Positions 4,177 to 50,653 of a DNA stretch of 64,000 bases are shown piece after piece. Below the pieces are notes generated by a model. It ran no database searches, was not told the DNA's origin, and saw nothing but the letters and a program-made list of their open reading frames with translations. Position numbers and translations under genes: made by a program. Source of the stretch: Morchella semilibera (lineage: Eukaryota; Ascomycota; Pezizomycetes; Pezizales; Morchellaceae). The stretch is from positions 1,079,804-1,143,803 of the forward strand of contig CM018603.1 in assembly GCA_009192285.1 (NCBI GenBank), written 5' to 3'. Within the stretch, counting starts at the first letter, position 1. Every line of letters starts with the position of its first letter.

Positions 4177-4208
<32 letters not shown>

Positions 4209-4221
4209 CGACGACGACGAC
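4177..4221. repeat. (AAC)n followed by (GAC)n microsatellite
   Basis: Roughly eleven AAC units pass directly into four GAC units. On the minus strand this would encode a poly-Cys run inside a 118-codon frame, which I take as a simple-repeat artefact rather than a gene. Confidence 0.9.
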
Positions 4222-4724
4222 TATCTACGAAGGACGGATTTTGGCGCGTCGGAAAACTTAGGGAGAATAAAAATATATTGATACTCCGAGTAATCTCACT
4301 CGTTTGATTCCAAAAAAGACTCTTCTGTCTTTCAATATGTGTTGTCCTGGACGGACGGAAAAAAAACAACAGTCTCACATCAAAGGCCTGCATTATCACA
4401 AAGTTATTAAAATCACTGTCACGTATGTACTTCTTTTTTATCCCCCTTCGCCACCGATCAAGGATAACGCGTGGATTGGATGGGTTTTTGATAAACTTAG
4501 CTATCTCGGGCGCTAAACTATTCCCAGCCAACTTTTACCCCTGGGGCACAAGCCGTCACCCTCGACTCTAGTGTAATTGTGCCCGTGTCACGATTCTTGA
4601 GAGCCAATGATTGCCTCCCGCGGGTGCTGGGAATTCAATCTGAAACCCCTTTGAGATCTCAAGGTGAGACCCTGGATGAAAATCGGATTAAATCGCGAGC
4701 CGTGTAGACGCTTGGCAACATCTA

Positions 4725-4735
4725 GGGGGGGGGGG
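4725..4735 (+). repeat. G11 homopolymer
   Basis: One of about a dozen G or C runs of ten or more bases in the window; this one lies about 320 bases upstream of the F-box gene. Confidence 0.9.
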
Positions 4736-5056
4736 TATCTCCGTAGGCGCACACAACTAAACGTATTTACCTACATGTTACCTGCTTGCCTACATATTCT
4801 GTAGGTAGGCCCCTTATTGAACCATTTCCTCCCCGCTTCACAGTCTCTCCATATTTACGCTTTTAAGATCACCAGACCCAACCACCAGATCAACGATTGA
4901 CGAGCGGCTGGATCATACCTTCTTTCTTCCCCTTACCTCATTCACTTTAAACAACCTGCCTGCCAGCCAGCGCCAATCCACGCTCTTTCTTCTTTAAACC
5001 ACCAACCTTCAAGCAAACACGTACTATCATATACTCATTACAATTCAAAAACAATC

Positions 5057-5530
5057 ATGACCACCGGACCATCCCACCTCCTCAACCTCCCCAACGAGCT
5101 CCTCTTCATCATCGCCGAGCACCTGCCCGTCCCCGACCTCAACTCCTTCCTCCAAACCAACCGCCACCTCTCCACCATGCTCACCCCACTCTTGCATCAA
5201 TCGGCCGTCACCGACCTCGACGGGTGCCCCGCGCTCCTGTGGGCGCTGGACACTGCCCACGAGCAGCTAGTGCGGCTACTCCTGGAGAAGGGCGTCGACG
5301 CCAACTCGCAGCTCAAGGGGGTGACGGCGCTGCTGTATGCGGTGATCAGACTGCGCGAGCCAATCATGAGGATGCTGATTGAGGACAGCAGCGACGGCAT
5401 ACGGGACGCGGTGGTTCGGCTCGGCGAGTCGATCTTTAGACTGCTGAGTAGGGGTGTGCCTGGCGGTTCGGGATTGGGGTGCATGAAGGGGATAGGGTTG
5501 GAGAATGTACAGGTCGCGCAATGCGCGTAA
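5057..5530 (+). CDS. short F-box protein with degenerate ankyrin-like segment
   Basis: The 157-residue product begins with a typical F-box (about residues 8-45: LLNLPNELLFIIAEHLPVPD, then LNSFLQTNRHLS), the module that docks onto Skp1 in SCF ubiquitin ligases. Residues about 57-100 (CPALLWALDTAHEQLVRLLLEKGVDANSQ, ..GVTALLYAVI) match one to two ankyrin repeats. Family members usually carry many ankyrin repeats and run to several hundred residues, so this copy looks truncated: the frame stops just before a 7-G and a 16-G run. The start is supported by an A-rich leader (ACAATCATGACC). GC content is clearly higher than in the flanks. The F-box call is firm and the ankyrin call good. Whether the gene is functional or the remnant of a longer one is open; an intron followed by further exons was looked for and not seen. 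Confidence 0.75.
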   Translation: MTTGPSHLLNLPNELLFIIAEHLPVPDLNSFLQTNRHLSTMLTPLLHQSAVTDLDGCPALLWALDTAHEQLVRLLLEKGVDANSQLKGVTALLYAVIRLREPIMRMLIEDSSDGIRDAVVRLGESIFRLLSRGVPGGSGLGCMKGIGLENVQVAQCA

Positions 5531-6477
5531 GGGGGGGTTGGGGGGGGGGGGGGGGTTGGTACTCTACTACTACATACCCCCCACCTGTGAGGGGCCGGAG
5601 ATTGTCGATAGAACGTACCCCTGGAGAACAGGTATATAACCGGATATAATTTGAGAGGAGGAGGGATATCTTAATGTTTAATCATAGTTTATGGAACGCA
5701 TGTAAATAAAAAAAAACGTGGGGGGGGGGGCATTGCATAGCCGGAGTTCTACATATTTTCTGTATGGGATGGTATTTTTTGTTTTACCGGGAAAAAAAAT
5801 CAAAATCGATCTGTGTTTGTGTTTGTGTGTGTGTGCATATTGCGAAAGCACGTGTAGGATCAACCGTATATTTCCCGGGGAAACGCGTTTGTTTACCAGA
5901 CCGTGACATTGATTGGCCCACGCACCTCCCTTTGAATTCGACGTGACAGACCAGGTAGAGTTCAAATTCGATCTCTATATGTACCTCCATACATGTAGGC
6001 AAGTATGGAGCTGTACCTTACCTACTCCATGTACCCACTGCCAAGGTCCGACCAAAAAAGCTTATCCTTACCAAGGGTCAATGATTACATTTGCACCCCG
6101 TCCCTCGCGGAACAGAGAAACGCATCGCGGGGCCCGATACGACGATACGGGCCCTACTACTACATAGATACAATACCGATAGATAGAAACCCCAACCAGA
6201 CGAACAGACGAACAGAAGAAGCGCTCCCACCATGCTTGCCCCTCCTGCTGCTGCACCCAGCGACCTCCGGGCCTGCATAGAAACCCACACCTTCGCCGCG
6301 TGGCGGACCCGCGGCTGAACCCGGCCGGATACGTTGGCTAGGCCCGCGGCGGACGGCGGCGCCCGTGAGGTTTGAGAGGGGGGAGTGTCAGTGTGGATGG
6401 TTTTTTATTTTTGTTATATATTTTATATCTATATTCTCCCAAGACCCCCGGTCACAGCGCCCTACCCTACACGCTAA
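5531..6477. other. intergenic, simple-sequence rich
   Basis: Contains G runs, a (TG)n tract near 5.82 kb and a TACATGTA near 5.99 kb. From about 6.23 kb GC content rises and an ATG at 6232 opens 28 codons before a stop; this may be leader sequence or an unrecognised first exon of the small gene that follows. Confidence 0.5.
5540..5555 (+). repeat. G16 homopolymer after F-box gene
   Basis: Longest G run in the window, ten bases after the stop codon of the F-box gene and next to a separate G7 run. A further G11 run lies at 5720-5730. Confidence 0.9.
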
Positions 6478-6805
6478 ATGCTAACGGCAGCGCGCACCCC
6501 CGCCGTCATCGTCACCTGCGGTACCAGCTTCCCCTCCCCTCCGGTCCCCCACACGACGCTCGCGCAATTGAAGGTGGCAAAGGATGTCGGCGGGGTGGTG
6601 GTGGTGCCCGGGGCGTTTAGCCCCCGTCACGTGGGTGGCCCGGAGACGGGTAAGAGTATCGCGGTGACGGGTAAGCCCGGGGTGCATTTGGTTCCCCTCT
6701 CCCCCGACATCTCGGGCCGCGCCCAAACCAGTCTACTCCGCCGGCGGCGCGGGATACACCCCTCCTCGTCGACCAGGCCAGGGCCGCTACATTGGCACCG
6801 GCTAG
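6478..6805 (+). CDS. possible small spliced gene, function unknown
   Basis: A GC-rich open frame begins at ATG 6478. A donor GTAAGA at 6650 and an acceptor ACCAG ending at 6731 would remove 82 bases and join exons 6478-6649 and 6732-6805 in frame (246 bases, 81 residues). The spliced product has a hydrophobic beta-like first part (PAVIVTCGTSFPSPPVP, then GGVVVVPGAFSP) and a Gly/Tyr/Pro-rich tail (YSAGGAGYTPPRRPGQGRYI). I do not recognise a family. The start is uncertain: the bases just before it (TGCTAACGGCAG) also read as a branch site plus acceptor, so a first exon may lie upstream near 6.23-6.37 kb. Without splicing the frame runs on to 6873 and ends in a (TG)n repeat, which is less convincing. 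Confidence 0.35.
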
Positions 6806-7569
6806 GACGTCAGGCTGGGGCAGTGGATGGCTCACGCCGCCTCAGGGCGTCCGGGGGTGGTGTGTGTGTGTAATTGTAGTTGTAAGTGTAAGTGGTGGTA
6901 ATAGTAACCGTCTATACCCACCCACGCTACCAATGACCAAGCCGCATCTTCTACTCCCCACCGAGTCCAAAGACCTAGCACGCATCTATGAAGTAAAATA
7001 AATAAATATATCCAGCATGCAACCCTAACCCATGAACCGAGGTGTCCGAGTGATAGTTCATGACTGCTTATATACGCCATGTGTGGGGGTATACCGTAGC
7101 CCGCCCTTCCCCCCCTAGTAAGGTCTGTATACTACCTAAATACCTACATAGTAGATCACCTCTAGAAAGGGGTGGTCTGGCCAGACCTCTGAACTGCGCG
7201 GGCCGATAAACCTATAAACCGATGGCTGGGCTTTTGAAGGTAGACTGTATATACTGCCGGCCCTGGCGTGTGCAGTGCAGATTTGGGGGAACAGGTGTCT
7301 ACGATACATGAGAGTACAGGTAAAAGTAGTTCGGGGGAGTAATGGTGAAGCTACGTATATACAACAAATAGCAAGATACGGCTACAAGAAGCCTTCGTAT
7401 ACGAAGTTCATAAGTAAGTAGACACATGTAGCTACGTGTATGTAGCCAGTACGTCGATTACTAAATAGGTAGGCCTACAAACCCGGGGCCAAAGATTGCA
7501 AAAGCACCACTTGTGGCCACGTCCTAATAGTTTTCAGTAAGTGTCTACATCTACAGGTCCCAGTCCTAC
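6806..7569. other. intergenic region upstream of the 613-residue gene
   Basis: No gene is seen. It holds a telomere-like AACCCTAACCC at 7021-7031 and many short TACCTA/GTAGGTA and ACATGTA-type words. The last 60 bases are rich in CATC/CACC and probably contain the transcription start of the next gene. Confidence 0.5.
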
Positions 7570-9411
7570 ATGCCTCTACATCACTCTACCATCAAGACCT
7601 CTTCACCCCCTCCACCATCCACCATAACCATCATGTACAGCGCCCCCACCCCCCACCCCCCGCCCAACCCCAGTCCCCAGATCGTGCATCTGAGCATGGA
7701 CTTCTTCGCGCCACCCATCGGCACGTACCACCCGCAGCGGGGCTTCCACGCTCTCATCCCCGCGCCGCTCGACAACAACGACGACGACGACGACGACGAC
7801 GACGCCGCCGCCGGGCCCTCCACCCCGCTGCGGCCGCTGCGCGCATTCTTCAGCGAGACAACATCGCACAGTATGATTACCTACGCGGCGTGCCAGAAGC
7901 TCTCGCCAAGCTTCAGCTGGATGGGCCAGACGGCCAGGATCCAGGCCGTCTGCACGGGTAGGAGCCGCGAGTACCTCTTCACGTCTGCCGTGGGGGACAC
8001 GCGGGAGGAGGATCGCGGGCAGAAGATGGTTATGCCGTTGACGCAGCAGTTGATGGTGCATGGGACGGTGGATCTTTGGTTTATGGTTAGGAATGGGGCG
8101 GAGTGCGAGGAGGAGGAGGAGGAAGGGGAGGAGAGGGAGGAGGGCGGGAGGTATCATTATTTCCGTATGAGCGAGGTGATATTGGTGACCGAGTTTTTCA
8201 GTCCGTGGGCAAAGCCGTCAATCATCACGGTGGAGGAGAAGGAGAAGAAGGATGAGAGGGAGAGGCGGAAGGCGGAAGGAGAGGCGGTGGAGACAGAGTC
8301 CTTTGCGGATCGCGAAGGATTCGAGCTTTGTCTGGGGCGTGATTTCTTCCAATCATACCCTCACCTTCTTTTTGACGTCACGCCTGACCCAGTCTCCGAG
8401 CTCCGCATCTCGTCAGCTCACTACCTGCACTGTGCACAAAAGCTTACCTACGACGGGGACGCGCTATCAATCCGCACCGCCGCGGCCTGTATCGCCCGAA
8501 GTGCTGACGATGCGGGCAGCCTTTCCCTGGAGTGCGGCTTTGCGGTCCATTTTGCTCCCCATTCGGTCTATAATTCCTTCTGCCGCCTGCCTGGTCTGAG
8601 GCAAAGGGGGAAGGTGGTGGGGCCAAACGATGAAAGGTATCTACCCAGTACCCTGGGGCGGGCCTTTATCGCCGGCATCGTCCTAGCACTCGAGATGGCC
8701 GTCTCTCTCGGGCGTCTGTGTATGGCCAGGAGATTCCGGGGAGTAAATATCTATCATTGCACCGACCTTTTCGAGGAGGAAGCCAGGGCGCAAAGGGCCC
8801 TATATCAGTCAAAGGGACTCCCATTCCCCAACATGGACTTGATACACAGGATGTTCCAACTGCAAGCCCTCATCGAGAACCCCAAATCACTCAATCTGGG
8901 CAAAGTGCGGTTCATCAACTGCAGAGGCGCAGATAGGCGCCTAGAAAGCGCCAGCATGCTCGCAACCCTGGGCACCGCCATGCGGCCCGTTGAATATCGC
9001 GCAAAGACGTTTGCCGGCTCACGCCTAGTCTCGGGCACCGAGCACCCCGTCCGCTGGGGGATCGAGGACACAACCCTGGACCCCAACACCTACTACATCT
9101 CCGCCGAAGACGACGACAACGACGACGACGAGAAAGGGAATGTTGATCCTCCCTACTTTCCCCTCTTCAGGGGACTCGGGGTCAACTCGCTCTTCGACAC
9201 GCAATTTGAAAAGGGCGAGGACGGGACATTTGCCGTGCCGCAGGAAATGGTTGTGAAGCGCGTGCCGATGTTTCTCAATTTCGGGAACACGAGCACCTAT
9301 GTCATCAAGGGGAAGCCGATCGCATACACGCCGAGGCAGTTGTATATGATTGAGAAGGAGGATGTCGTTAGCGGGCTAGCGCTGGTCAATGTCAACGACG
9401 ACGGCACTTGA
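7570..9411 (+). CDS. retropepsin-like plus RNase H-like protein, probably inactive
   Basis: The intronless frame gives 613 residues. In-frame ATGs at 7570 and 7633 are both possible; the second removes a Pro/Ser-rich leader. Residues about 88-112 (LRAFFSETTSHSMITYAACQ) line up with the active-site region of retropepsins, where D-T/S-G is expected but S-E-T (95-97) stands. The flap-like stretch GTVDLWFMVRNG (165-176) and the distal LGRDFFQSYPHLLFDV (255-270) match the typical (I/L)LGxDFL segment. Residues about 292-465 follow the order of fungal RNase H domains: LTYDGDALS, TLGRAFIAGIVLALEMA, VNIYHCTD, then VRFINCRGADRR. The conserved Glu expected after R-A in the second block is Phe (366). Acidic low-complexity inserts interrupt both parts, and the last 130 residues are unknown. 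Similarity was judged by eye. Inference: a retroelement-derived or convergent two-domain protein kept without catalytic activity. The intact frame of 613 codons argues for selection. Confidence 0.65.
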   Translation: MPLHHSTIKTSSPPPPSTITIMYSAPTPHPPPNPSPQIVHLSMDFFAPPIGTYHPQRGFHALIPAPLDNNDDDDDDDDAAAGPSTPLRPLRAFFSETTSHSMITYAACQKLSPSFSWMGQTARIQAVCTGRSREYLFTSAVGDTREEDRGQKMVMPLTQQLMVHGTVDLWFMVRNGAECEEEEEEGEEREEGGRYHYFRMSEVILVTEFFSPWAKPSIITVEEKEKKDERERRKAEGEAVETESFADREGFELCLGRDFFQSYPHLLFDVTPDPVSELRISSAHYLHCAQKLTYDGDALSIRTAAACIARSADDAGSLSLECGFAVHFAPHSVYNSFCRLPGLRQRGKVVGPNDERYLPSTLGRAFIAGIVLALEMAVSLGRLCMARRFRGVNIYHCTDLFEEEARAQRALYQSKGLPFPNMDLIHRMFQLQALIENPKSLNLGKVRFINCRGADRRLESASMLATLGTAMRPVEYRAKTFAGSRLVSGTEHPVRWGIEDTTLDPNTYYISAEDDDNDDDEKGNVDPPYFPLFRGLGVNSLFDTQFEKGEDGTFAVPQEMVVKRVPMFLNFGNTSTYVIKGKPIAYTPRQLYMIEKEDVVSGLALVNVNDDGT

Positions 9412-12390
9412 AGTGGTTATTGTGCCCGGTGCAGTTCAGTCCGGGTATGTGTTTTCCCGGAGGTCCTTCCTGAACGGAGTGTGTAAGCTAACTTGAAGGG
9501 TAGGGAGAGGGAAAAAAACGTCACTGTAGGGTTTTAAGTGCCCTGAGGTTTTTATTGTTTTTATTGTTATTATTATTATTATTATTATTTCCTATATTGG
9601 ACCTAGCCTTTGTGGATAAATTGGCTTGGGGGGCTAATTACTACACTTTTGTTTATTAATATGGAAGGAACGGGCGGAACCAAAGGGGGAAGAGAAGATG
9701 AGGATGATGAGAATATCTGCACTGTGATCAGGATCGATCTGATATAAAGTAGAGCAGGTACAATAGCGGTACAGTACTCCATGTATGTACTCTAGGCGGG
9801 AGCAGAGTATGAGGTACACCGTACATAACACCGCAGTACACACTTCATGCATGTATGCACCTCTGTAGACCCGACAAGCATCCGGGGAAAATACATGTAT
9901 ACCGGGGGACTGACCGGGGTGCCTAATTTCAATAACTTCAAGACGAGAACCACGCAATAGAAACGAAGCTATGGCCCAAAGAAGGGAGAGACAGAGAGAG
10001 AGAGAGAGGACACTCCATTCCAGTCTGCAGTCCATCTTCTTCGTCATTCTTCGTCCTTCGTCTTTCGTCTAGGGGGGGTAATCAATCGTTCCCCCTCGAT
10101 CCGTATGTTCTTGTTTGTCCCCTCCCACATCCACTCCCGAAACGTATGTACCTACATATACATATGTCAGTCGGTAGAGCACCTACTCTATTTCCAAGAC
10201 CAAGGTTTTAACAAAGCTGGTGGTGATGGTGGTGGTGGTGATGATGTCTCCAGAACCGGAGCAGAGTACGTAGAGTAACCTGGGCGCTTGCTATTTTTAG
10301 TCCGTTGCAGTGGCGAGTAAGCAAAAGCCCAAACCCGCAGAGTATGTATCTCGGCGGTCGCTCGGCACCCCCTCTCCGTCAATGCCCGCGTGTGGTGGTG
10401 GGGTTGGGTGTGTGCGAGTGTGAGCCCACACAACACGAGTGAGAGGGAATGACGTGAAGTCACGACATGAAGAGGTGATGTTTGTCCAGGTTTAATTCAC
10501 CCACCAGCCTAGCTCTCAGAAGGAATCGTGCCTGCCTTCATTACCTACTCATACATACCCGTCGCAGCATAACGTGCGTGCATGGAAGACTTTTGGCTTT
10601 TCAACCGTACACACACCAGAAGAGGCTCGAGTCATACATAACTCATTCACATGTTTGCATGTTTGCATATGTTCGCATCCCCCCTCTTTACCTACCTACA
10701 TGGAAGACTTTTTTTTTGGGTACATATGGGCGGGGGGTGTCCGACTGGTGTAGGTAGTGAAGTGAAGGAATGGAATGGATGGAACAGATGGATCAGCCTG
10801 AGACCGACAGAGCGACAGACCAGAAGGAGGGGAGCCTCAAAACGGTCGCGTGGGTTACCGGCTTTTGATGTGATGTCTCACTTCTCGCCCCCCCCTTGCC
10901 ACGGCCGGACTCTCGGCTTTTCTAAAGGGGGGAGGGGGGGGGATGGAAGGAATCGGAATGGCCACCACCCCCTCCGCCGCTCGCAGCCAGCGGGAATACC
11001 CGGTTCGGAGCGAGGGTTCCTACGGGGTGGGAACAGTACATGTATGTACCCCACGCTCTTGTAGGTATGTAGGTAGCTTAGTAGGTAGCTACACACATGT
11101 CGTGTAGCTAAACTCACACTCACGGTAACTAGACCTCCCCCCCCCCCCCACCATGGTTCCTCCACATGTACCCCGCAAACACGATCTTGTGCTATGCCCT
11201 ACGCCTATGCTATGCTATGCTATGCTACGCTACTCCTCCGGCTTTTTTTTTTCTTTTCTTCTTCTAACCCCCCCCCCCCCAGGGCTGGATGGAGCTCCTG
11301 GAATGTGCCCCCCCCCTCCCTCTCTCTTTAACTCTCTACAATCCAATATATATACAATCCACAAGGAAAAATAAAAAAAACATAAGAAAAAAAGGAACAA
11401 GTCAGGCAGGCAGGCAGGCAGTCAGGCAGGCAGGCGGGCAGGCAAGCAGATCGGAGAGAAGAAGAAAAGAAAAAAAAAAAGGAATGCAATGCAATGCACG
11501 AAAAAGCTGGGTAGGCTTTATCGACGATGGAATGATGCTGCTGCCGGGCCTGGTTGGGGCGTATGTAAGAAGGGAAGAAAAAGGAACACAAACGCAGAAG
11601 AGAGAGAGAGAGAGAGTATCGTCGATACCGATATCGATACATACACCCTCCCTCCCTCTCCCCCAAGAGGAGAAAGCAAAGAACAATCGATCAGATAGCT
11701 AGCTAGTTAGCAACGACCCCCCCCTTTCCTTCTCTTCGACCATACCCCTCCCTCTCCTACCCCAGAACCTTCCTTCTCAGAGAACCCCCTCCCTCTATCC
11801 TCCCCCCGTGGTTATTTGACAGGCAGTCAGACCCCGCTTGTTGGCCATGTAACTGAACCGAACCGAACTGACTGACCGAGGGGTCGGAAATTCAACTCAC
11901 ATGTACAGCCGCGTGTGATTGGATGGATGCTCAACAAGCAACATGTTGTGTTGTAGCAAATGCAAGAACAAGAAAAGAAAGGAAAAAAAAAAGAATTAGA
12001 GAATGAATGAGTCGCACCAGAAGAAAAGATAAGAACCCAAAAAAACCAACCGCCAAAATTTAAAAATGAAAGTGATAGATATACAGGGAAAAAAGACAAA
12101 TTGCAGAACGCCCTCTAAAAACATAAAAACACTTTTTTTTTTACCGCCTCTTCTTCAACTTGCCCCCTGGGCCCCCCCCGACTCTCTTTCTCCAAATCAA
12201 TAAATAAAAAACATAACTCACAATATACCATTGAAAAAACCCCAATATAGTTTACCCGTTGTGTTTAACTCTCACACTAAAAAAAAAGAAATAATAGTAA
12301 AAAAAAAGAAAGTAAAAAACTCCAACAATGTACTTTTTTTTATAGATCCCTCGTATCCTACAACCGCCTTACCCCCTCCTCCTTCCCAAA
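9412..12390. other. microsatellite-rich intergenic region
   Basis: No recognisable protein. It holds (TTA)n near 9.57 kb, (GA)n near 10.0 kb, two C13 runs (11137-11149 and 11268-11280), (CTATG)n near 11.21 kb, (GGCA)n at 11.4 kb, (GA)n near 11.6 kb and repeated TACATGTA/GTAGGTA words. Open frames here are translations of simple sequence. The left part should include the 3' UTR of the 613-residue gene and the right part the 3' end of the minus-strand gene at 12.4 kb. Confidence 0.6.
11401..11447. repeat. (GGCA)n tetranucleotide microsatellite
   Basis: About eleven imperfect GGCA/GTCA units in a row, followed by a purine-rich AAGAAA tract. Confidence 0.85.
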
Positions 12391-12906
12391 TTAGACAGCA
12401 GTGAACCACATACTTACGCCTCTCACCGGCGTGTACTGGCTCCTACACTGCTGACTCGTCTCTCTCCTCACACCACTCTTTCTCCTCTGTTGCTGCTGGA
12501 CCGGGGGTGGTGGCGGGGGAGCCTCATACGGCTCATCGTCGACCACCCAGCGCACGGTCCTGGCCGTTTTTGTTGGCTTTACCACAATGGGCTTTGGCGG
12601 CTCTAGCTCTGCGGCGGTATAGATGACCTCCTTCTTCAGCGGCGAGGGCTTTGTGGCCGTTGTACTTGATGTGGGGGAGGTGGTGCTAGTACTAGTAGAG
12701 GAGGTGGAGGTGGAGGATGATGAAGCGGTTGTGGTCGTGGTAGAGAGAGGGCTCTTGGACCGGTAGGACTTGAGATTGCGTTCAGGGCCCTTGTCGTTTC
12801 GGAGGACGTACTTGCTGTAGGGCATTGGGAAGGCATGGGCGACGAAGTCGGGGTTGGTGGTGGCGTGCTTGATAAGGGCCCAGCGGTAGGTGTCGCGTGC
12901 TACCAT
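12391..12906 (-). CDS. low-complexity protein of unknown function, 3' end uncertain
   Basis: The open frame reads 171 residues. The first 50 (MVARDTYRWALIKHATTNPD.., then YSKYVLRNDKGPERNLKSYR) look like genuine conserved coding sequence. Then come a Ser/Thr-rich linker (about 51-87), a short ordered stretch TARTVRWVVDDEPYEA (about 115-130), and proline and glutamine runs. I do not recognise the family. The end is doubtful: at 12417 on the minus strand there is a perfect donor (GGC|GTAAGT) in phase 0 after residue 163, so the last eight residues (VSMWFTAV) are probably intron and at least one more exon lies at lower coordinates. I could not place the acceptor with confidence. One terminal reading near 12.14-12.19 kb ends in KLKKRR before a stop but needs a different phase. 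The protein is likely nuclear or cytosolic; no signal peptide is seen. Confidence 0.55.
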   Translation of the reverse strand: MVARDTYRWALIKHATTNPDFVAHAFPMPYSKYVLRNDKGPERNLKSYRSKSPLSTTTTTASSSSTSTSSTSTSTTSPTSSTTATKPSPLKKEVIYTAAELEPPKPIVVKPTKTARTVRWVVDDEPYEAPPPPPPVQQQQRRKSGVRRETSQQCRSQYTPVRGVSMWFTAV

Positions 12907-14983
12907 TTTGAGTGTGGGGTGGTAGTAATAAGGGGGGGTAGGTTATAGATAGTAGTAGTGGGGAGGCAGATAACGAGAGGTAGGTGACGAGGTGTGTATT
13001 TATATAAGAGGTAAGGGAGAAGTTGTAATTGCGTTGATATGTGATAGTTGAAGGAGAACTAGCACACCTAGGAGTTTACTCGAGGCAAAACCTAACGCGT
13101 CTTCAATTCTTCTTGTTGGCTGTGGATTGTAAAGAAAAGAAGAGGGAGAAGAAGAATTCTTAAAGACGGGGGGGTGGTAGAGCCTGTAATTATAAATGGG
13201 ATGAATATGCCTAGGATGTGCTTGTCTGCTTTCCTTTGAAGGGGAAGCGTCCAAGGAGGGGGGTTAGGTTAAGTATTGTAGGGTTAGTCCGGATAAAAAA
13301 AAATAATCGAGCTAAGAAAAATGATCATCGCTCAATGCAGTTAGCGCATCCTATATTCCTGCTCCTGGCCGGCGGTGGTGGGTGGTGGTTGTGGTGCACT
13401 CACCTCACCCATTCACGAATGAGTAAATGAACGACCCTAAACTGAGTCCAAGCATGGTACAGGATGGTAGAAAAAATTTTTTTTTTTTTTTGCATTGCTT
13501 TGCTTTGCTTTGCTTTGCTTCTCTGCCCGCATTGAGAGGCTGCAGTAAAGAGCCGCCGCGCCCCCGCCTGCCCCATGAAGGGGAAGGGGATGGGAACAGA
13601 CACTGGCAGGCGGTTTTACCTACTGGTTTACCGTAACTTAACCCCCTCCCTCGCCTTCTCTCTCGTCCCAATGTAGCAATTAGGGCCGGGTGGCTGCCAT
13701 TATAACCGTCAGATTCAAAACAAAATGAACAAGGTGTGTGGGTTTTCTCCCTTACTCTTCTCCCTTGACGGTGAGTTATGTAACCCATTATCATTGTTAT
13801 TATTATTACCATTATTCTTTTTTTTTCTGTCTCTCTCTCTCTCGGTTGAAATGGGGACTGCAAATTGATGAGTAATTCACTCCTGTTGTGTGCATGAGCG
13901 GTGGTGGTGGGTGTGTGGGTGCGTGCGTGCGTGCAGATCATACTTAATATCACGTCACAGGGATTTTTTGTGCGGCGAGGCGAGTGAGAGGAGATGAACT
14001 TGTGACATGCACACTTTACAAGCACTTTACTCAGAGTACCCCCCTTCTCTCTCCTTCTCGGGAACCTTGCTCGTGCCTCGTTATTGCTCACCTGGATGGC
14101 TGAGCTGGGTAGTTTTGAAATAAAATCCAGGTTCAAGGGTTGTTCTACAGCATGAGCAAAAATGGATGGTGGGTCATGGTTGCGTTGCGGCGGTCATGGG
14201 CCTGTGGTGGAGGTTAGAGTAAGATGGGAAATGCTGACTGTACCACCTATTTTATTGTCATACCATGTACGTACAGGCGTACCTACATCTATGTCTTTCC
14301 TTTTGATCCTTTCTCTTCTTTTTTCTGTGCCTTTGTGTCTTGTGTCAAGACAGATAGATGGATGGATTGGATGGAAGGGGTGGATGGATGTTGGGGTTGG
14401 TTTGGGGTTCGGTTCTGTTTGGTTTGGGTTGGAATTGTTGGCCAGGATGGCGTTTCTGCCCACAATCGCGATCGTTGCCTAAATGCGGGAATTGTTTACA
14501 CCACCGAATTATTCAACGGCGGATATCCATTTTTTCCCCAAAACCAGTGAGTCCGGGTAACCAGCCCAAGACCCAGAAATCTTTGCCCAACCGCCCCCCG
14601 CCAAACTTTAATCCAACGTCATGGGCCTACAAGAGACTCCATGAATATCATTGGCCATTTATACGAGCTCTGAAAAATATTTTTTCGGTTGCGGGGGAGG
14701 GCTTGGCTAAGGTGTTTATCCGGCCTTCGCTTTTTTGATACATGTATGTAGTTATTGGTTGTTGTTTTTTATTTGGGGGGGGGGGATGAAGGGAAAAAAA
14801 AATGACACTCTCGGGAGAACGTGAACGTGCCTTCTCGGAACATTTTATCATACCATTCATACCTTCCTTGCCTAGGTTCTCAAGTTTCGGTTTGAGGCTC
14901 CGAAACACACCAGCTTGCCTCCCCCCCTCCCCCTCCCCGCCACACATAAGAATCTCCAGGTCCCCAATTGTGTCCCAGGAACA
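12907..14983. other. intergenic, promoter side of two divergent genes
   Basis: Contains a T run with (TTTGC)n at 13496-13520, (ATT)n and (CT)n near 13.8 kb, (GTGC)n near 13.92 kb, (GGATGGAT)-type repeats near 14.37 kb, a G11 run at 14775-14785 and a TACATGTA near 14.74 kb. A 243-codon minus-strand frame crosses these repeats and is not credible. The stretch 14.8-14.98 kb is C/T-rich and is the likely promoter of the dehydrogenase gene. Confidence 0.6.
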
Positions 14984-19871: not shown

Positions 19872-21284
19872 CTACCACCTCTTACAAACTGTAATCATAC
19901 TCTGCTCCCCGACCATAACCATATACTCTCCGCCCACACTAAACGCGATGTGTCTAATGGGTGACCTGACCTTCGGGATATCTACACAGTGATGCGGCCT
20001 CACCAGTCCAAACGGGCTTGTCACATCATCAACAACCTTAATCTTGACACCCAATGGCATCTCCCCGCCCGCGCTCCCCACGCTTTCCTCCCGCCCCTCC
20101 CCGCTCTCCTTCCGGAACATCTCGGTCCTGCACAGATCCCACATGTTCACCCGCCCCATGGTGCTCCCCATGGCAAGGATTGGATGCAGTCCCTTGGCGC
20201 CAAAGAACCCAAAGCGCATGAAGAACGGCTCCGTGTCTTTGCACTCAAACATCACGAGCCTCTCGAAACCAGGGCCGAAGACGCTCCGCGTCTCGCGGAA
20301 CTCGTGGGTCGTTGGCGGAGACCCCCAGGCCTCTGGGTCCAACCGGCTGGTGAAGCCCTGGATCGACCAAAGGACAATGCGGTGCTCCTTCGCCGCCTTG
20401 CTCAGGATCACGTCGCCGTGCCATTCCAGACAGTCAATGTAGTTACTGTGGACCATGCTCGTGGCAAAGTGGGGGTAGTGCAGCACCACCGGCTTGTCGC
20501 TCCCGGCGGGCATCTCCTTGGGCAGTATCCACAGATTGACGATATGGTCCATTCCGCCCGAGAGCAGGTATCGCCCCGATGCGTGGAACGAGATGGATAG
20601 TATCGTTTCGCGGTGGCCCTCGCCCGCGCATATCAGCGCGCACGGCTGCGTGCTGTAGTCGGGGTGGACGTTCCATATCCGCACCGTCGAGTCGGCAGAG
20701 GCCGAAGCGAGCAGGTTCTGGTCGGAGGGGGACACGAGAATCTCCATTATCTCGTCGCCGTGGCCAGATAATGTCTGTTGGACTTTCCCCGTGTGTATAT
20801 TGATGATCTTGATTATCCCTGCCGCACCGCCGACGGCGAGGAGCGGCGCGCCCGTGCTTGTGCAGCGCGTCCAACAGGCTGAGCAGAGCGCCTCGGTGGG
20901 GAAGAAGAGGTCGTCATGGAAGTACTGGATTATCTCGATCCCACGAGAAGGGTGGGGACGGGCAATGATGACCTCACGGCCACCGACGACGGCAAAGACA
21001 GGGTCGACACCCGGAGGGGTATACGGGTAGAAGTAAGCGCCGTAGAAAGTGACACCTGGCGAGCCTTTGTTGGGCTAGGTGGGGCTTGTTTGTTAGTGAG
21101 TGGGCTGGAGAGAGAGAGGGGGGTCAGTATTGAACATGAGAGCAGTAGAGAAGGGACTTACGCCGATTGTGGATTTGACGGTGGGGAACTTCCATTGATC
21201 GAGAGGCTTGGTAGTTGGAGCTGTGTTAACGACTGGGGTAGTGGAGGAAGAGCCAGGGGTCTCCGTGTCCCGTTTTTTACTCAT
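19872..21284 (-). CDS. EED: Polycomb PRC2 subunit EED, WD40 protein
   Basis: Exon 1 (21284-21162) and exon 2 (21074-19872), joined across an 87-base intron with GTAAGT donor and CTAAC branch site, encode 441 residues. EED is the WD40 beta-propeller of PRC2, which places H3K27 methylation and in animals reads H3K27me3 to stimulate the enzyme. Sequence blocks parallel animal EED in order: FYGAYF (51-56), EALCSACW with APLLAVGGAAGIIKIIN (102-134), SGHGDEIMEILVSP, LLASASADSTVRIWNV, GHRETILSISFH, YLLSGGMDHIVNLW, SNYIDCLEWHGDVILSKAAKE, EPFFMRFGFF, ILAMGSTMGRVNMWDL, and SPIRHIAFSVGGEYMVMVGE at the end. A short disordered N-terminus (1-30) precedes DQWKFP. At positions matching the human aromatic cage (F97, Y148, W364/Y365) I read Y52, C105 and F325/F326, a notable change. 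Identification is firm; the cage comparison is by eye from memory. Confidence 0.93.
21075..21161 (-). other. intron of EED gene
   Basis: On the minus strand the donor is GGC|GTAAGT, the branch-like sequence is TCACTAACAAAC, and the acceptor is CCACCTAG. The phase is 0. An earlier CAG acceptor (TCTCCAG) exists but lies upstream of the branch site. Confidence 0.9.
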
Positions 21285-24109: not shown

Positions 24110-24214
24110 TGGAGACGCGGGGAATCGAACCCCGGACCACCTCTACACAAGCCTCAAGTATCTCTACATGAGGTTCAATGCTAAAGAGGTATTATACCAC
24201 TAAACCACATCCCC
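24110..24214 (-). tRNA. tRNA-Ala (anticodon AGC) with intron
   Basis: On the minus strand GGGGATG pairs with CGTCTCC to form the acceptor stem, including the G3:U70 pair that identifies alanine tRNAs. The D arm carries GTTTAGTGGTATAATAC, the anticodon stem is CCTCT/AGAGG with loop TTAGCAT (anticodon AGC), and the T arm is CCGGGGTTCGATTCCCCG. A 33-base intron sits after position 37, the usual place. The discriminator is A. Confidence 0.93.
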
Positions 24215-24344: not shown

Positions 24345-25730
24345 TAACTTCTTGTTTTGTACCGATATATAGCCGAGATTCTCCTTATCAAAATAGGGTA
24401 GTTATAACAAGCTACATGCATGTAGAGACTGTAATTTTACGTGCCAAGCCACTAACATGGAGTGAAGTTTTTTCTCCCCCTCACTAAAGCAAAACGGCAT
24501 AGCCTAGAACTAGCGGGCACGCAATTTAAAAGTTACCTGGTCCTACCTAGGTTTGGTGACGTCGTTGCCTGGAAGGAGGAAGGTTTGACTATTGTCATTA
24601 CTAAATTTCCTTGATCTCCATTGGCCGTTGGACTTTCCGAATCTGCAAATCTCAATAGTAGCTTTTCACCTGTAACAGAATTGACCTAGCCTGTTCCCTC
24701 GCTTTTCCTTTCCCTTTATTTTGGGAAAGACCTCTCGCCGACTCCAAGCAGTCAGGAGCACCTTTCAAAAAGTATAAAAGGAGCTTAGTGGAGCTACATA
24801 CAACGAACATGTGACGCAACTAACACGAAACATCAAGTAATGCTTCGGCACTTACTGATCCACTTCTACTAATAAAAATTCCGAGGGGAATTTTCAATTG
24901 CCAATCAATTGTACTAATTTGGCCTTCAGTTCTTCCGGCATAATGAAGGAACCATCAATAGACTGTGTTTCCTTATCCGTTAGTCTGTCAATGCTGGCCC
25001 TCCTCCTATCCCTTATAAAAGAGGGTTAGGGTTTGTATTTGAGATTAATTGATATGAGAGATAACAAGATCTGTTGGCAAAGCTACCAATATTTTCTTTG
25101 GGGGGATCAGCATATACTTACTGACAGCTCAAGGGGTAAGAGTTTCCCCATTAAATTCATTCATACCTTCAAAACCCGGACAAAATCATCTTCCACGTAG
25201 GATACTTCATCGGGCACCTCATCATATCTACTTAGTAACGTGCGATATTGATAGAGCTATGGGGCTGGATTCTAGTTGAATAATGAACGATTCCTTGTTT
25301 ATAATTAACGAATAGACGAAGCGTCTTGGTTACCTATTCTTAGGGGAAGGTGAGCCCTTCCCCGTTTTCTATTCTGGGTTGTTGCCACCTTATAGTTGCC
25401 ACATTGCGCTACTCGCTTGAGGGTATCTACATCACTTAGGTACATTTCCTAATTCGTGTGTTCTCACAACGGGGGCTGGTAGTAAACTTTTACTCGGTAG
25501 TAATCCTAACTCGCACTCCATGAACCTCCCTGCCTTTTGTGACACATCCTATGCTTACAAAGTATTTTAGTGTCTTACAGTTTGTAGAAAGTTTATGTAG
25601 ATATTACCACGCTGCCGGGGCCTAATATGTCTCAACCCTAAGCCCGTATACCTATTTTTAAGGGTTAGGGTTAAATGGAATGTTTGATGTTTTTATTTCA
25701 AGTAAGCGCTAAATCGAGCAACCATGCATG
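24345..25730. other. intergenic, AT-rich
   Basis: No open frame of note. Telomere-like motifs are at 25023-25033 (GGGTTAGGGTT) and 25661-25673 (AGGGTTAGGGTTA); the second is 57 bases upstream of the tRNA-Pro gene. Confidence 0.5.
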
Positions 25731-25829
25731 GCCCGGTTGGTCTAGAGGTATGATTGTCGCTTCGGGTTTCTCCCCGGGAATTTATTTCTCAAATGTGACA
25801 GGTCTCCGGTTCGATCCCGGAATCGGGCC
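25731..25829 (+). tRNA. tRNA-Pro (anticodon CGG) with intron
   Basis: The acceptor stem is GCCCGGT/ATCGGGC, the D arm GGTCTAGAGGTATGATT, the anticodon stem GTCGC/GTGAC with loop TTCGGGT (anticodon CGG), and the T arm TCCGGTTCGATCCCGGA. A 27-base intron is inserted after position 37. The discriminator is C, as in eukaryotic proline tRNAs. A T9 run follows at once (from 25835) and fits an RNA polymerase III terminator. Confidence 0.94.
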
Positions 25830-25926
25830 GAATATTTTTTTTTAATTTTGACTTTATTAATACAGGACGACTTTACCTAGCAGGGAAGGTGGTGGGCTTG
25901 ATTGAGTTAGTCAACAGATATGGTTA

Positions 25927-44000: not shown

Positions 44001-46223
44001 AAACAATATGAGGCGGTTTGAATCTAGCTTCCTTGTAATCGTCAGTAAGAGGGTGTGTTTGAAAAGCTTCCTGTCAGGTGTTTATAATCTAGCAAACCAC
44101 CACAAAGCGAAAACAAACACAGCATCAACAACCCCGAACCCTCTTCCCAGTACTCCTACTCCTCAAACAATCCCCATCCCAAAAAGTCACCCTCTCCGTC
44201 TCCTCCCTTTTCCTCTTTCTGAGTCCATCCCCCCTCTCCATCTCGATCGGGACCTCTTTCTTCTTCCCCTTCCCCTTCTCCTTCTCGATGCCCCTCCCCC
44301 TTTCAACATCTCCGCCTCTCCCGGGAGGAAAAAGCAGGCGAACAGTCCGGGGAAACATCTGGTCGATCTCGCGGTCCGAGAACGGGTTCCCCAGCTGTCC
44401 GTTGCGGTGGCGAAGAATGATCATTTTGGGCACATAGAGCTGGCGTGGTTTGGTGTGGGGGCGGGGCATTGTATGGCTGTGCGTAACGTTGGTTTTTTTG
44501 GGGGGGCGCTGATAAAGTAGTGCTAATCCACTGGCGGATATTGTTTAGGAGTAATAACTGGTCTGGCCCACCCGGAGTATATATATATACCGTCTCTATC
44601 TTTCAACCCGCAATCGGCGTGGAGAGATATTCATGACGAATTCTAATTCAAGGTTGGGTTTGACACTCATGTAACGACTAATTATCAAGTGTACAATTTT
44701 TGACCCTTCACACACTATCACTCGGCCGCCTCCCCGCCCCGCCCCGTCCTCATCCGCAGCGAGATCCGATGGAGAAGCCACACGGAGGGGTGTAAGTAAG
44801 TAATTACATGTCTAGCAGGGTGTACCATCGATCCAAGTCTTCGGATCGTGATGGCTTGCGCTGCAGAAATCTGGACCCAATCATGGGATTTATTCACAGG
44901 CTAATAAGGAGACACATAGATTATATACTTTGCATACATGCAGTTACCTTCCTCCCCAGCCTCTAGCTGTCAAAAAGAAAGATATACATATATGTAGGGC
45001 ATCAACCAGGCCACTTCCCTGCATGAAGTTACCGTACTTTAAACTGCGCGCTTTGTGCATATCCTCTAACAGTCGCACCCCCAACAAAACACCGTCTACG
45101 TCTACCCCGCCGAGTCCAAGTCAACCCTAACCCATACAATCAAGCTACATAGCCCCAGCACCCCACACGCCACCCCCACCCCCCCCCAGAGACTCCCGTA
45201 CCAATAGATATCTGTGGAGTATAAGCACAAGTCTAATTCAAAATCACCTCCACAGCCCACCCCACCGATCTCACTTCCCAAAAGGGTACACACCCCTGAC
45301 AACTCCGGGGTAAGACGATGAGTGTATCAGAACTTTTTCTAAACTCAGTGAGAACATGATGTGCATACATAAATTGACGTATTACTAGTGCGCGTCTATG
45401 CTTAAGAGGATCACCGAATATTCGCAGGGCCTACGTATAGCTGCGCACTTGCGGCAACCAGTGGTTCGTGAAAATAATTTTATTCGTTATTTAACCGTAC
45501 ACGTTCGTGTTCTTAAGTGAAGGATCTGTAACCCTAACCCTCATCGGTACCTTTTTTTGCTTTTTTTTTTTTTTTTTCTGTGTGGATATGTATACCTACC
45601 GCGGTAAAGACCGGTAAAATAAGACTTGAAGAGGAAGAGGGTGTCCGTTCTGAAACAAGACAGGAGGTAGTTGAAAGGTACCAAGGCTCCAATCAACAGC
45701 AGTTGGGAGGAACGTACACGAAAGTATGAGATGGAAGGAAAGGTACCAAGGCTCCAATCAACAGCAGTTGGGAGGGACGTACGCAAAAGTAAGAGATGGA
45801 AGGAAAGGCGGGGTATCGAAGGGGGAAAAAAAGTGATAGAGGTATGGGAGAAAGGAAGGAAGTGCCAGATAGGCGTGAGACGTGCTTGGACACAAGCACT
45901 GAAGGAATCGAACTAAAAACCACACCATGACGTCGTTGACCCGGCATCGACAATCACCAAATATCACTCACAATCACACGAATTGCCAAGATCTGCAGCT
46001 TGTGACCCCAAATTCCATTATCAGGCGGTACTTCTATTCACGTCCGTCCTGCGGCGTGATCCATACCGATTATCCAATCCCGGCCACAGAATTTTATCGC
46101 AAAGGGAAAGCGGAAGGGAAGGGAAAGAAACAACAACGATCCCTTCCCCACAATTGCACGCCAAGTGCTCGCGTTGAAGCAAACAAGAGTCAAGCAAATC
46201 CGTCCACACATCCTTATTATCCA
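41018..46223. other. intergenic, no supported gene
   Basis: The first 700 bases are T-rich and probably 3' UTR and terminator of the transcription-factor gene. Later parts hold only short frames; a GC-richer island at 44.1-44.5 kb has competing frames on both strands (170 codons plus, 114 codons minus) without domains. It also contains telomere-like motifs at 45123-45133 and 45529-45541, a T18-type tract near 45.55 kb and the 65-base tandem repeat. Confidence 0.55.
45673..45808. repeat. 65-base tandem duplication
   Basis: The unit beginning GAAAGGTACCAAGGCTCCAA occurs twice with a 65-base period (GGTACC at 45677 and 45742), followed by the start of a third copy. The copies differ at only a few positions, so the event is recent. 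The repeat makes frames open on both strands; none is a convincing gene. Confidence 0.85.
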
Positions 46224-48818
46224 TTATTTTTTGGCTGCCGTCCCTTCGCTCTCTATTCTTTCGTCGTCGCTGTCCTCGTCTTGTTTATCCGCATTACAAG
46301 CCAAAAGTCCGTTGCTGTTGAGAAATCTCACGCTGACCGGGCTCCTTGCAGGTCCTCCAGGACTTGTCTGACTCGCCGCTGGCGTCTCGGGAAAGCTTCG
46401 AGATACAGTGCTCGGGCTCCTGGTGACAGGGCTTGAACTACTTTGCGGCGTAATCTTGACATATGTTCCTGAAGAAAGTTCCTGCAACACAAGTAGATAA
46501 GGTCTCTTCGAGCTCAACAACATCTGGTACTGGCAAGGAGGAATATTAGGAGGGGAGACAGAAGAAGAAGCAGAAGGGTTCGTGCTGCTAGCGGTGGTGG
46601 TGTGTATAGTTGTGGCAGTGGAGGCGATAGTGGTTGGGGCGGCCCGCATGCGCTTCGATGCTAGCCGAGAAAACGTTGGCGTTGAGCCGGATGGCTGTTC
46701 TGTTGAGCTCGACGAAGCTGTACAGGGACTCGCGTCCGGCTCGTTAGATGATGGTGATGGCTCTGCTAGCATACTAAAGCGGAAACTCGGGAGTGGAAAA
46801 TCATAGTCACACTCGGGCACACTCACATCATCCAAATTTGGATCACCATCATGAGAGGGACGTTTAAGGACTCTATCTAGCCCTGCGATTTCACGTATCG
46901 CAGAAGCATAGGTCAACTCACCGTCTTCATCATATTCTCTAGATCCTGAGCCTGATGGGGCATCACTTCGGGGGTTCACTTCCGGCCCGAGACCCATGAT
47001 ACCAGTATCCCTACTCTTTCTCCTTTTCTCCTCCTCCCAAACCTCTATTGACTTTCCACTGGTGTCTAAATAGTAATGGCTGTTCTCCGGGGGCTCCAAG
47101 TGGTCAGTACTGCTCATTATAGCCTTTCCTTTTCCTTTGTTGATAGCCTGCCCTTCGTCAATTCTGTTCGTATCCGAGTCATGTTCTACCTTCCAGTAGA
47201 TATCCGGTAGATTCCTCCCGCCACTAGAGCGTTTCAAGGCAGTGGCAGTATCATACTCCTGATCCATCATTTCCCCGACTGTAAATGGGGCTACAGAATC
47301 AATTTGTGGTAGGGTGGGAGGCTCAGTCAACTTCAACCATTTCTTTGTTTCCTCCGAGGACAAATTTTTCCATGGAGAGATCGGCGGTAATTCTTCCATT
47401 CCTAGAGGAGACAAAGCGGGATGGGACTGTATCATGGGAACCTGTTCGACCCAACCCCCTTTAGATTCTTCCGGTGCAGTATTTTCGGTAACCTTTGGCG
47501 GTGTAGCGTGGTTGCGCACCGCGTTCGAGACTTGGGACGGGAGCAAATCGGGCCCCGGTTTGTCACTAATTGCGAACTCGGATCCGTCGGGGTTATTCCA
47601 CGGCCCGCCATGTTCATCCCGCCTCTCTAGAGGGACAGTCTGTGGCCTTTCCGGGGGTTCGGTTTCAATAGCCCCTGTACCAGACACATCATTAGAAGCT
47701 AGAGGTATTGATAAAAATGGCACCGATACCCTTCTACACGCTGAAGCAACTCCTCTTCGTACAGCTTCCCTAAATCCTGATCCATGGCTGGATCCTCGAA
47801 TTGTGGATGACTGACCCGAGGAAAAATAAGGGGGGGTGTGAGCCGGAGTGCGAGCAGACAGTGATTCCAAGTGGCCAGGTTCGGAGGAGGCTGCGGCGGC
47901 AGCGCTCGACGCGGGTGATTCTGTTGAGCTTGAAGAGTGCTTCCCGGACCGCAGAAATCGGTTGACTCGGGTCCGGAACTTCTGAGCAGGGGGTGAGGAG
48001 GATGACCTAAGTTGTTCGCCTGGTGCCGAGACATCGACTCCTTCATGCTCCTCTTCTAATGAATCTCTACCTCGCCCTTTTCTGTGGTGATGATGTCTCC
48101 ACGATGCCAGTTTGTTCGAGAAGCTCGAGGGGCTGGAGTGCTTGTGTGCATTTCTAGAGGGTACATCTTTGGCATGAAGTGGGACCGTACTTGCTAAGGA
48201 TGTTGCAGCAGTTGGATGTGGAGGGTGTGGGGATTGGTGACCCGTATCTTGGTGTGGGGACCCATTTAGATTGTTTCTAGATGAAGCCTCCTTTGAGTTA
48301 AGTTCATTCATCAGATGATCGACCTTTGGGGCAGTGTTATTCTGTCTGCCCCTTGATGAAAGAGTTTCCCGAATGTTATGTCTGGCCGACAACACATTAC
48401 CAAGCTTAGATCGAGCGGTGTTCCATCGATGCCTCGTCCTCCCTTCCCCCTCCCTATACCTTTCGTCCGGATGATCACTTTCTTGGGTTGGCAGTGAATA
48501 TTGCTGGGCGTCCTCCGAAAAGCGAGCAGCCTCCCCACGTGGTTGCTGCTGCTGTAGCAAATTCCCAACAGAATCTCTGACAGGTGACATGCCCAAATAA
48601 GCGCCAACATTAGGACTGCGTTCATCTGGTTTGGCCTGGCTAGGTAAATCTGTAGTACTGGAAAGCTGTGATGTCGGTGTTCCAAGAACCATCTTTCGGT
48701 CTGAGGATTTTCTAGTCCTGAGCGGTGAACCAGCACCATTCTCTGAGGGTTTGGCATTGGAAATGCTTTCCTCTCCACCATCACTAGATCCCACAGGAGG
48801 GAGAAGAGAGTGCGACAT
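46224..48818 (-). CDS. large Ser/Pro-rich disordered protein, function unknown
   Basis: The frame gives 864 residues from MSHSLLPPVGSS; an upstream in-frame ATG at 48869 would add 17 residues (MMFSNNRLVL..), less typical for a disordered protein. Most of the chain is low-complexity Ser, Pro, Thr and charged residues, with His-rich WRHHHHRKGRGR and many SP/TP sites suggesting phosphorylation. Shorter ordered-looking stretches are EAVRRGVASACRRVSVPFLS, LPPISPWKNLSSEETKKWLK, ELTYASAIREIAGLDRVLKR and, near the C-terminus, CQYQMLLSSKRPYLLVLQEL followed by SSGTYVKI. No signal peptide, membrane span or catalytic motif is seen. I do not recognise a named family; a fungal-specific regulatory or scaffold protein is the likeliest type. 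The unbroken length and GC content make it a real gene. No intron was needed. Confidence 0.8.
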   Translation of the reverse strand: MSHSLLPPVGSSDGGEESISNAKPSENGAGSPLRTRKSSDRKMVLGTPTSQLSSTTDLPSQAKPDERSPNVGAYLGMSPVRDSVGNLLQQQQPRGEAARFSEDAQQYSLPTQESDHPDERYREGEGRTRHRWNTARSKLGNVLSARHNIRETLSSRGRQNNTAPKVDHLMNELNSKEASSRNNLNGSPHQDTGHQSPHPPHPTAATSLASTVPLHAKDVPSRNAHKHSSPSSFSNKLASWRHHHHRKGRGRDSLEEEHEGVDVSAPGEQLRSSSSPPAQKFRTRVNRFLRSGKHSSSSTESPASSAAAAASSEPGHLESLSARTPAHTPPYFSSGQSSTIRGSSHGSGFREAVRRGVASACRRVSVPFLSIPLASNDVSGTGAIETEPPERPQTVPLERRDEHGGPWNNPDGSEFAISDKPGPDLLPSQVSNAVRNHATPPKVTENTAPEESKGGWVEQVPMIQSHPALSPLGMEELPPISPWKNLSSEETKKWLKLTEPPTLPQIDSVAPFTVGEMMDQEYDTATALKRSSGGRNLPDIYWKVEHDSDTNRIDEGQAINKGKGKAIMSSTDHLEPPENSHYYLDTSGKSIEVWEEEKRRKSRDTGIMGLGPEVNPRSDAPSGSGSREYDEDGELTYASAIREIAGLDRVLKRPSHDGDPNLDDVSVPECDYDFPLPSFRFSMLAEPSPSSNEPDASPCTASSSSTEQPSGSTPTFSRLASKRMRAAPTTIASTATTIHTTTASSTNPSASSSVSPPNIPPCQYQMLLSSKRPYLLVLQELSSGTYVKITPQSSSSPVTRSPSTVSRSFPETPAASQTSPGGPARSPVSVRFLNSNGLLACNADKQDEDSDDERIESEGTAAKK

Positions 48819-50552: not shown

Positions 50553-50653
50553 GGCAGGATGGCCGAGTTGGTTATGGCGCCAGGTTAAGGTATTAAACTT
50601 AACATCAATTCCTGGTTCGGAAACGAGCGTGGGTTCAAGTCCCACTCCTGTCA
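50553..50653 (+). tRNA. tRNA-Leu (anticodon AAG) with intron
   Basis: The acceptor stem is GGCAGGA/TCCTGTC and the D arm starts TGGCCGAG as in leucine tRNAs. The anticodon stem is CCAGG/CCTGG with loop TTAAGGT (anticodon AAG), interrupted after position 37 by a 19-base intron. A long variable arm (TTCGGAAACGAGC) marks a class II tRNA, and the T arm is GTGGGTTCAAGTCCCAC. The discriminator is A. Confidence 0.93.

Follow-up and report, generated by a model that had tools for sequence, protein, structure and literature searches.

A 64-kb window of DNA (64,000 nucleotides, the whole stretch analysed here) contains an open frame whose 613-residue product was read in an initial annotation as a retropepsin-like segment followed by an RNase H-like segment, with the active sites of both changed. 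The locus raises the question of whether this frame is a gene and, if so, whether a protein that resembles two nucleic acid- and protein-cutting enzymes, seemingly without the means to cut, is what the sequence implies. We find the frame open over its full length of 613 aa, as the annotation had it, with the nearest in-frame stop on the 5' side at 7528. The frame was also described as GC-rich in the manner of real genes, and this is borne out by a GC content per codon position of.585/.441/.743 and by codon usage. With five other window genes as the training set, the codon score over the whole ORF is 0.174 per codon in the frame itself, within the 0.118-0.214 per codon that these five genes reach when scored on themselves, and it drops below zero in each of the five remaining frames. 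The score is lowest in the 100-codon block after codon 300, at 0.011 in frame and 0.07 in one reverse frame, and this block of weak codon bias lies inside the RNase H-like half. Simulated sequences of 64 kb contain open frames of at most 282 codons when drawn with the composition of the window and of at most 588 codons when drawn with that of the ORF itself (40 trials each), and a loose intron pattern finds a single candidate on the ORF, which is out of frame. By these signs, frame openness and codon bias, we predict that 7570-9411 is a real gene.

The surroundings of this gene look fungal, with a dihydroorotate dehydrogenase, a transcription factor and a complex I NDUFA5-type subunit as neighbours by Pfam, the transcription factor carrying a fungal-specific domain together with Zn2Cys6 and C2H2 fingers. 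About 2 kb upstream of the gene, a short open stretch on the plus strand (4901-5530) encodes an F-box and then ankyrin repeats (PF00646, PF12796). Elsewhere in the window, the minus strand at 19872-20747 encodes a piece of an EED-like WD40 protein, the best solved relative of which is the (putative) polycomb protein Eed (5bjs, E 3.7e-55); this similarity suggests that the fungus has an EED-like PRC2 component. An open frame of 881 codons on the minus strand (46224-48869) matches zero Pfam families at E 10, and a tandem repeat with a 65-base unit, 2.1 copies and 94% matches is found at 45673-45808. Rfam matches tRNAs at 24110-24214 (minus strand) and 50553-50653 (plus strand), each about 100 bases and thus of enough length for introns, and ARAGORN, run with the bacterial code, misses both and reports another at 25730-25830. 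Close to the 613-aa gene, Rfam returns two rows at E 0.07-0.08, far under the gathering scores, and bacterial promoter and terminator patterns are within the shuffle spread, with no excess.

The protein is acidic overall (pI 5.21), and the RNase H-like region at aa 298-470 stands out as a basic stretch (pI 9.58) within it. Two triplet-repeat tracts in the gene, 7755-7790 and 9096-9131, code for Asp runs; they are 78% alike over 36 nt and 1341 nt apart, perhaps as a result of slippage. The features of the gene are collected in Table 1.

Table 1. Features of the 613-aa gene, with positions in the window and the basis of each assignment
Feature	Position	Strand	Details
Open reading frame	7570..9411	+	613 aa, read as one exon
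Run of eight Asp (aa 71-78)	7780..7803	+	encoded within triplet-repeat array 7770-7804
Clan AA catalytic-loop-like stretch, aa 88-112, RPLRAFFSETTSHSMITYAACQKLS	7831..7905	+	hhalign against 14 clan AA sequences
S95-E96-T97 at catalytic D-T-G position (putative)	7852..7860	+	glocal and hhalign alignments
CLGRDFF (aa 254-260), like second clan AA motif ILG.DFL	8329..8349	+	pattern match
RNase H-like region, aa 298-470	8461..8979	+	K+R 22, D+E 14, pI 9.58; profile, MAFFT, hhalign, guided model
A304 at catalytic D10 position (putative)	8479..8481	+	three of four gap settings, MAFFT, guided-model strand 298-311
F366 at catalytic E48 position (putative)	8665..8667	+	all four gap settings, MAFFT, hhalign
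aa 397-403 (CTDLFEE), candidate catalytic D70 region	8758..8778	+	register differs among methods
FPNMDL (aa 419-424), matches PVKNxDLW block of RNase HI	8824..8841	+	hmmsearch, MAFFT, hhalign
S462 at catalytic D134 position (putative)	8953..8955	+	three of four gap settings, MAFFT, hhalign
Acidic C-terminal part, aa 471-613	8980..9408	+	pI 4.46, without family match

Direct searches place this protein in no family. At E 10, Pfam returns zero families for the protein and for the parts of it that were queried, the RNase H-like segment included, and NCBIfam likewise returns zero for the full length. In particular, PF00075 matches neither the protein nor the segment at E 10, none of the clan AA families PF13650, PF13975 and PF00077 matches the protein, and no reverse transcriptase (RT) or integrase family of Pfam is found within the ORF; a typed clan AA consensus does recover clan AA families in the Pfam library used. 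A PDB sequence search with the RNase H-like segment alone yields zero rows. The sole PDB row, a match to chorismate mutase (E 6.8 and 0.69), was rejected as an acidic low-complexity match. PHROGs gives no usable match, just two short and weak rows (E 0.37 and 6.3), four queries made from the protein detect no relatives in viral contigs, and prokaryotic genomes, phages and plasmids contain no usable relatives, the collections searched being all non-fungal. Two Rhizobium rows from the plasmid search, at E 8-9 and one of them annotated as an oxidoreductase, were taken as chance.

We turn to profile comparisons judged against shuffled and natural controls, and at the sequence level the support for RNase H is firmer than that for retropepsin. 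An RNase HI profile of E. coli rnhA and viral relatives (thinned at 80% identity to 79 sequences) was compared with aa 280-490, taken as the RNase H segment that the initial annotation had named beforehand; the shuffle counts for both halves concern folds chosen by that annotation after sight of the sequence. In glocal alignment the score of the segment is -10.3, whereas shuffles average -50.0 (sd 10.9); this corresponds to z 3.66, and 3 of 1500 shuffles do as well. Along the 613-aa protein z peaks at 281-491 (12 windows), and the highest z of the same profile on six neighbouring proteins is 2.24 (25 windows). With four gap settings z ranges from 3.5 to 4.05, with 2, 1, 0 and 0 of 400 shuffles as high, and when residues are shuffled within 20-residue blocks instead, 0, 1 and 3 of 600 are as high. 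hmmsearch without filters gives the segment 1.7 bits, a score matched by 4 of 2000 shuffles, the top one at 5.6 bits, and gives the whole protein only -0.1. Profile-profile comparison, which the annotation had proposed as a check, bears out the segment against shuffles, none of 200 being as high, at a pair E of 0.0029 and an hhalign probability of only 10.5 percent; for the whole protein these values are E 0.0093 and probability 4.4. Unrelated natural ORF pieces provide a further background: 80 such decoys were left from 99 natural pieces after removal of 19 RNase H members by blastp, and z >= 3.3 was attained by one of them, or by two when this set was first run. The profile similarity of the annotated RNase H-like segment exceeds its shuffled controls with each of the three methods, and we regard the RNase H assignment as moderately backed above chance.

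The same alignments suggest what has become of the catalytic residues. In place of the D-E-D-D set of RNase HI, the preferred register finds A304, F366 and S462 at the positions of D10, E48 and D134. The stretch IRTAAACI (aa 301-308) is aligned on IFTDGSCL by three of four glocal gap settings and by MAFFT, the fourth glocal setting puts N335 on D10, and the hhalign match begins downstream of D10 and leaves it uncovered. YDGDAL, which had been annotated as the first catalytic block, is probably not that block; we rejected it in favour of IRTAAACI, which occupies the corresponding strand in three of the four settings and in MAFFT, one setting choosing neither. The replacement of the conserved Glu by Phe is upheld, with F366 on E48 by every method that aligns this position. 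The register is least certain at D70, where all four glocal settings open a gap, hhalign selects C397, MAFFT selects E403 and the helix start in the guided model described below suggests D399; two of these candidates, D399 and E403, are acidic. At D134 the fourth glocal setting prefers D455, and the H124 position of RNase HI is A454 in three of four settings. The NxDL block is placed alike by MAFFT, hhalign and the glocal method, and N421 and L424 of FPNMDL are the only invariant columns among the 26 rows aligned by MAFFT. Where RNase HI has its basic protrusion, the MAFFT and hhalign alignments show a shortened stretch. On this register three of the four RNase H metal ligands look lost, and the fourth, D70, may or may not be.

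Structure prediction, also proposed in the annotation, gives an RNase H fold in one of two forms. From the single sequence of aa 280-490, AlphaFold produces no usable fold (pLDDT 36.3, pTM 0.26), and Foldseek with this model gives a best E of 0.53, with RNase H absent among the 50 matches listed. When aa 280-490 is instead supplied with 24 viral RNase HI sequences as the alignment, the guided model reaches a pLDDT of 71.1 and a pTM of 0.69, with 44 residues under 50, and has the RNase H order of elements; its best Foldseek matches are RNases H, with human RNase H1 (6vrd) at E 1.3e-6 and TM 0.70 by target. The guided model indicates that aa 280-490 can be fitted to the RNase H fold, a fold that comes from the supplied relatives and is to that extent biased rather than independent evidence. 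The check yields an RNase H fold only with RNase HI relatives supplied, and not from the sequence by itself.

For aa 40-285 a retropepsin fold is a more tentative proposal, which comes from similarity to a clan AA profile of 15 plasmid and phage sequences, of which hhalign used 14. As sources of clan AA sequences, PF13975 contributed 0 of 2 (two Rhizobium plasmids) and PF13650 0 of 10 (two Rhizobium plasmids and 8 viral records), and viral contigs searched with one plasmid protease gave no clan AA relatives. In glocal alignment with three gap settings, aa 40-285 reaches z 2.1, 2.5 and 3.0; 20, 9 and 2 of 600 full shuffles, and 19, 4 and 5 of 600 block shuffles, reach these scores. Among unrelated natural pieces, 4 of 91 come to z 2.5; the 91 are what is left of 99 once 8 rows had been excluded whose scores, at z >= 13.7, marked them as members. 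hhalign aligns aa 88-112 on the D-T-G loop (pair E 0.021, probability 2.2 percent, 25 columns), a score that 1 of 200 shuffles reaches. The catalytic D-T/S-G triad of clan AA is replaced here by S95-E96-T97 in the favoured glocal and hhalign alignments, as the annotation had stated for S-E-T. What stands of its retropepsin-like segment is a weak clan AA signal that is tentatively above chance; the other sign that it had named, LGRDFF, is left off the ILG motif of the profile in the glocal alignments. The pattern for CLGRDFF, written after sight of the sequence and with C allowed first, occurs in 30 of 20000 shuffles of aa 105-285.

Crossing the two profiles, with RNase H on the N-terminal half and clan AA on the C-terminal half, gives chance scores in both glocal alignment and hhalign. 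The annotated order, clan AA-like and then RNase H-like, is upheld to the extent that each half exceeds its shuffled controls with its own profile and the cross-controls are at chance. That both active sites are changed is probably right as well, and they would be more changed than the annotation stated if the register holds (A304, F366 and S462, in addition to S-E-T). It is quite possible, if still short of probable, that this fungal gene encodes a two-module pseudoenzyme, made of clan AA-derived and RNase HI-derived domains that have lost catalysis and would bind or pair. The N-terminal domain would derive from the clan AA (retropepsin) fold without its catalytic D-T-G, and the C-terminal domain from an RNase HI-type fold that has lost three or all four of its metal-binding residues, with both modules embedded in acidic low-complexity stretches. 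Such a protein most likely cuts nothing, because the metal ligands would be gone. Active retropepsins work as dimers, from which we infer that the protease-like module would serve pairing. Our guess for the basic RNase H-like module (pI 9.58) is that it would bind RNA or an RNA:DNA hybrid, much as the inactive Prp8 RNase H-like domain is said to bind RNA, or else a protein partner; hybrid binding of the E. coli type is disfavoured because the basic-protrusion stretch is shortened. It would be a long shot to see here a new kind of protein, one that joins dead protease-like and dead RNase H-like modules with no RT and acts as an RNA:DNA hybrid binder or pairs with retroelement Pol products in a dominant-negative manner.

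The reading as two modules is favoured by the gene-like frame, by an RNase HI signal obtained with three methods, by a clan AA signal that falls on the D-T-G loop, by a register on which the methods agree (at E48 and in the NxDL block, with D134 also alike except in one glocal setting), by the guided model and by the basic character of aa 298-470. It is weakened by the lack of a usable match in Pfam, NCBIfam, PHROGs or PDB, by the low hhalign probabilities (10.5 and 2.2 percent) and by the failed single-sequence model, as it is by natural decoys that at times score alike, by the weak codon bias after codon 300, by a D70 position that varies with the method and by the offset of LGRDFF from the ILG motif in glocal alignments. 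Stand-alone fungal RNase H-like proteins exist, and a rather unlikely alternative is that the C-terminal half only is a degenerate RNase HI-like domain, that of a diverged protein of this sort, with an N-terminal half that is lineage-specific and looks like a protease by chance. The clearly weaker clan AA signal fits this, both in its shuffle counts (20, 9 and 2 of 600) and in its natural decoys (4 of 91 at z 2.5), as does an hhalign match that spans only 25 columns, but this match lies on the catalytic loop and is followed by an ILG-like motif, and just 1 of 200 shuffles reaches its score. If both resemblances were due to chance, the gene would encode an orphan protein of another fold, consistent with decoy rates that are small but non-zero, with a single-sequence model that shows no fold and with the lack of a usable family match in the libraries tried; we consider this improbable, given that two separate profiles each select their own half over shuffles and not the other half.

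Protease and RNase H in one frame also recall a retroelement, and the initial annotation had pointed to Pol. A domesticated LTR-retroelement Pol that has lost its integrase, and the RT between protease and RNase H, would account for the order of the two segments, and a precedent is mammalian RTL1, which combines a protease with RT and RNase H domains that are likely inactive (PMC11011659). The DNA around the gene speaks against such descent. The flanks at 4500-7569 and 9411-13000 contain no integrase-type zinc motif and a single match to Y/F-x-D-D, FIDD, which lies in an open stretch of 144 aa for which Pfam lists just an F-box beta-propeller family (E 0.11); there is no LTR-like repeat pair between 4500 and 12500, and no retroelement Pfam family in eight flanking open stretches from 4178 to 14193. 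Within the protein, LGRDFF and the first RNase H-like strand are separated by only 37 residues, so that an RT would have needed to be excised cleanly, and the NxDL block is of the RNase HI type; to our knowledge, Ty3/Gypsy RNases H lack this block. Pol descent is thus not supported in the flanks examined and in our view quite improbable, and a retroelement origin of the gene is unproven, the RNase H signal having come from an RNase HI profile.

If orthologues confirm the two-module pseudoenzyme that we favour, two enzyme folds typical of retroelement polyproteins would have been kept together with catalysis lost in both and the RT between them gone, and a fungus would then offer a way to test what dead RNase H and dead retropepsin folds are good for. 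Should the RNase H half alone stand, the gene would add one more diverged RNase H-like pseudoenzyme. In the titles and abstract openings covered by our literature search there is no fungal protein that combines protease and RNase H without RT, and a prior description in print is still possible; papers on these topics treat the RNase H-like superfamily (PMC3985635), clan AA (PMC2642776) and Ty3/Gypsy elements (PMC2577118).

Compared with known systems, the C-terminal half is like RNase HI and RNase H1 (PF00075) in how strands and helices follow one another in the guided model and in the succession of the blocks IRTAAACI, STLGRAFIAGIVLALE, FPNMDL, VRFINCRG and ESASMLA in the MAFFT alignment. It differs from them in the putative replacement of residues at the D10, E48 and D134 positions, in A454 at the H124 position (three of four settings), in the shortened basic-protrusion stretch and in having no PF00075 match at E 10. 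The N-terminal half resembles the clan AA proteases (PF13650, PF13975, PF00077) in RPLRAFFSETTSHSMITYAACQKLS, which compares with QPARLIFDTGASRTLLRQAAAQRLQ in those enzymes, and in CLGRDFF further on, whereas S-E-T in place of D-T-G, acidic insertions and the lack of a Pfam match set it apart. The RNase H-like domain of Prp8 is inactive and said to retain RNA binding (PMC5603734); compared by this description, it is a model of how a dead RNase H-like domain may stay useful, in what is, unlike the protein described here, a spliceosome protein with an RT-like domain (PMC5603734). RTL1, a domesticated metaviral gene of mammals, is described as joining a protease to an RNase H domain that is likely inactive, with a capsid-like region and RT in addition (PMC11011659). 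The fungal protein, in which no RT family is found, would share with it the pairing of protease and inactive RNase H in one domesticated product. RTL1 is the nearest precedent known to us for a protease kept together with a likely inactive RNase H, one in which the RT has been retained.
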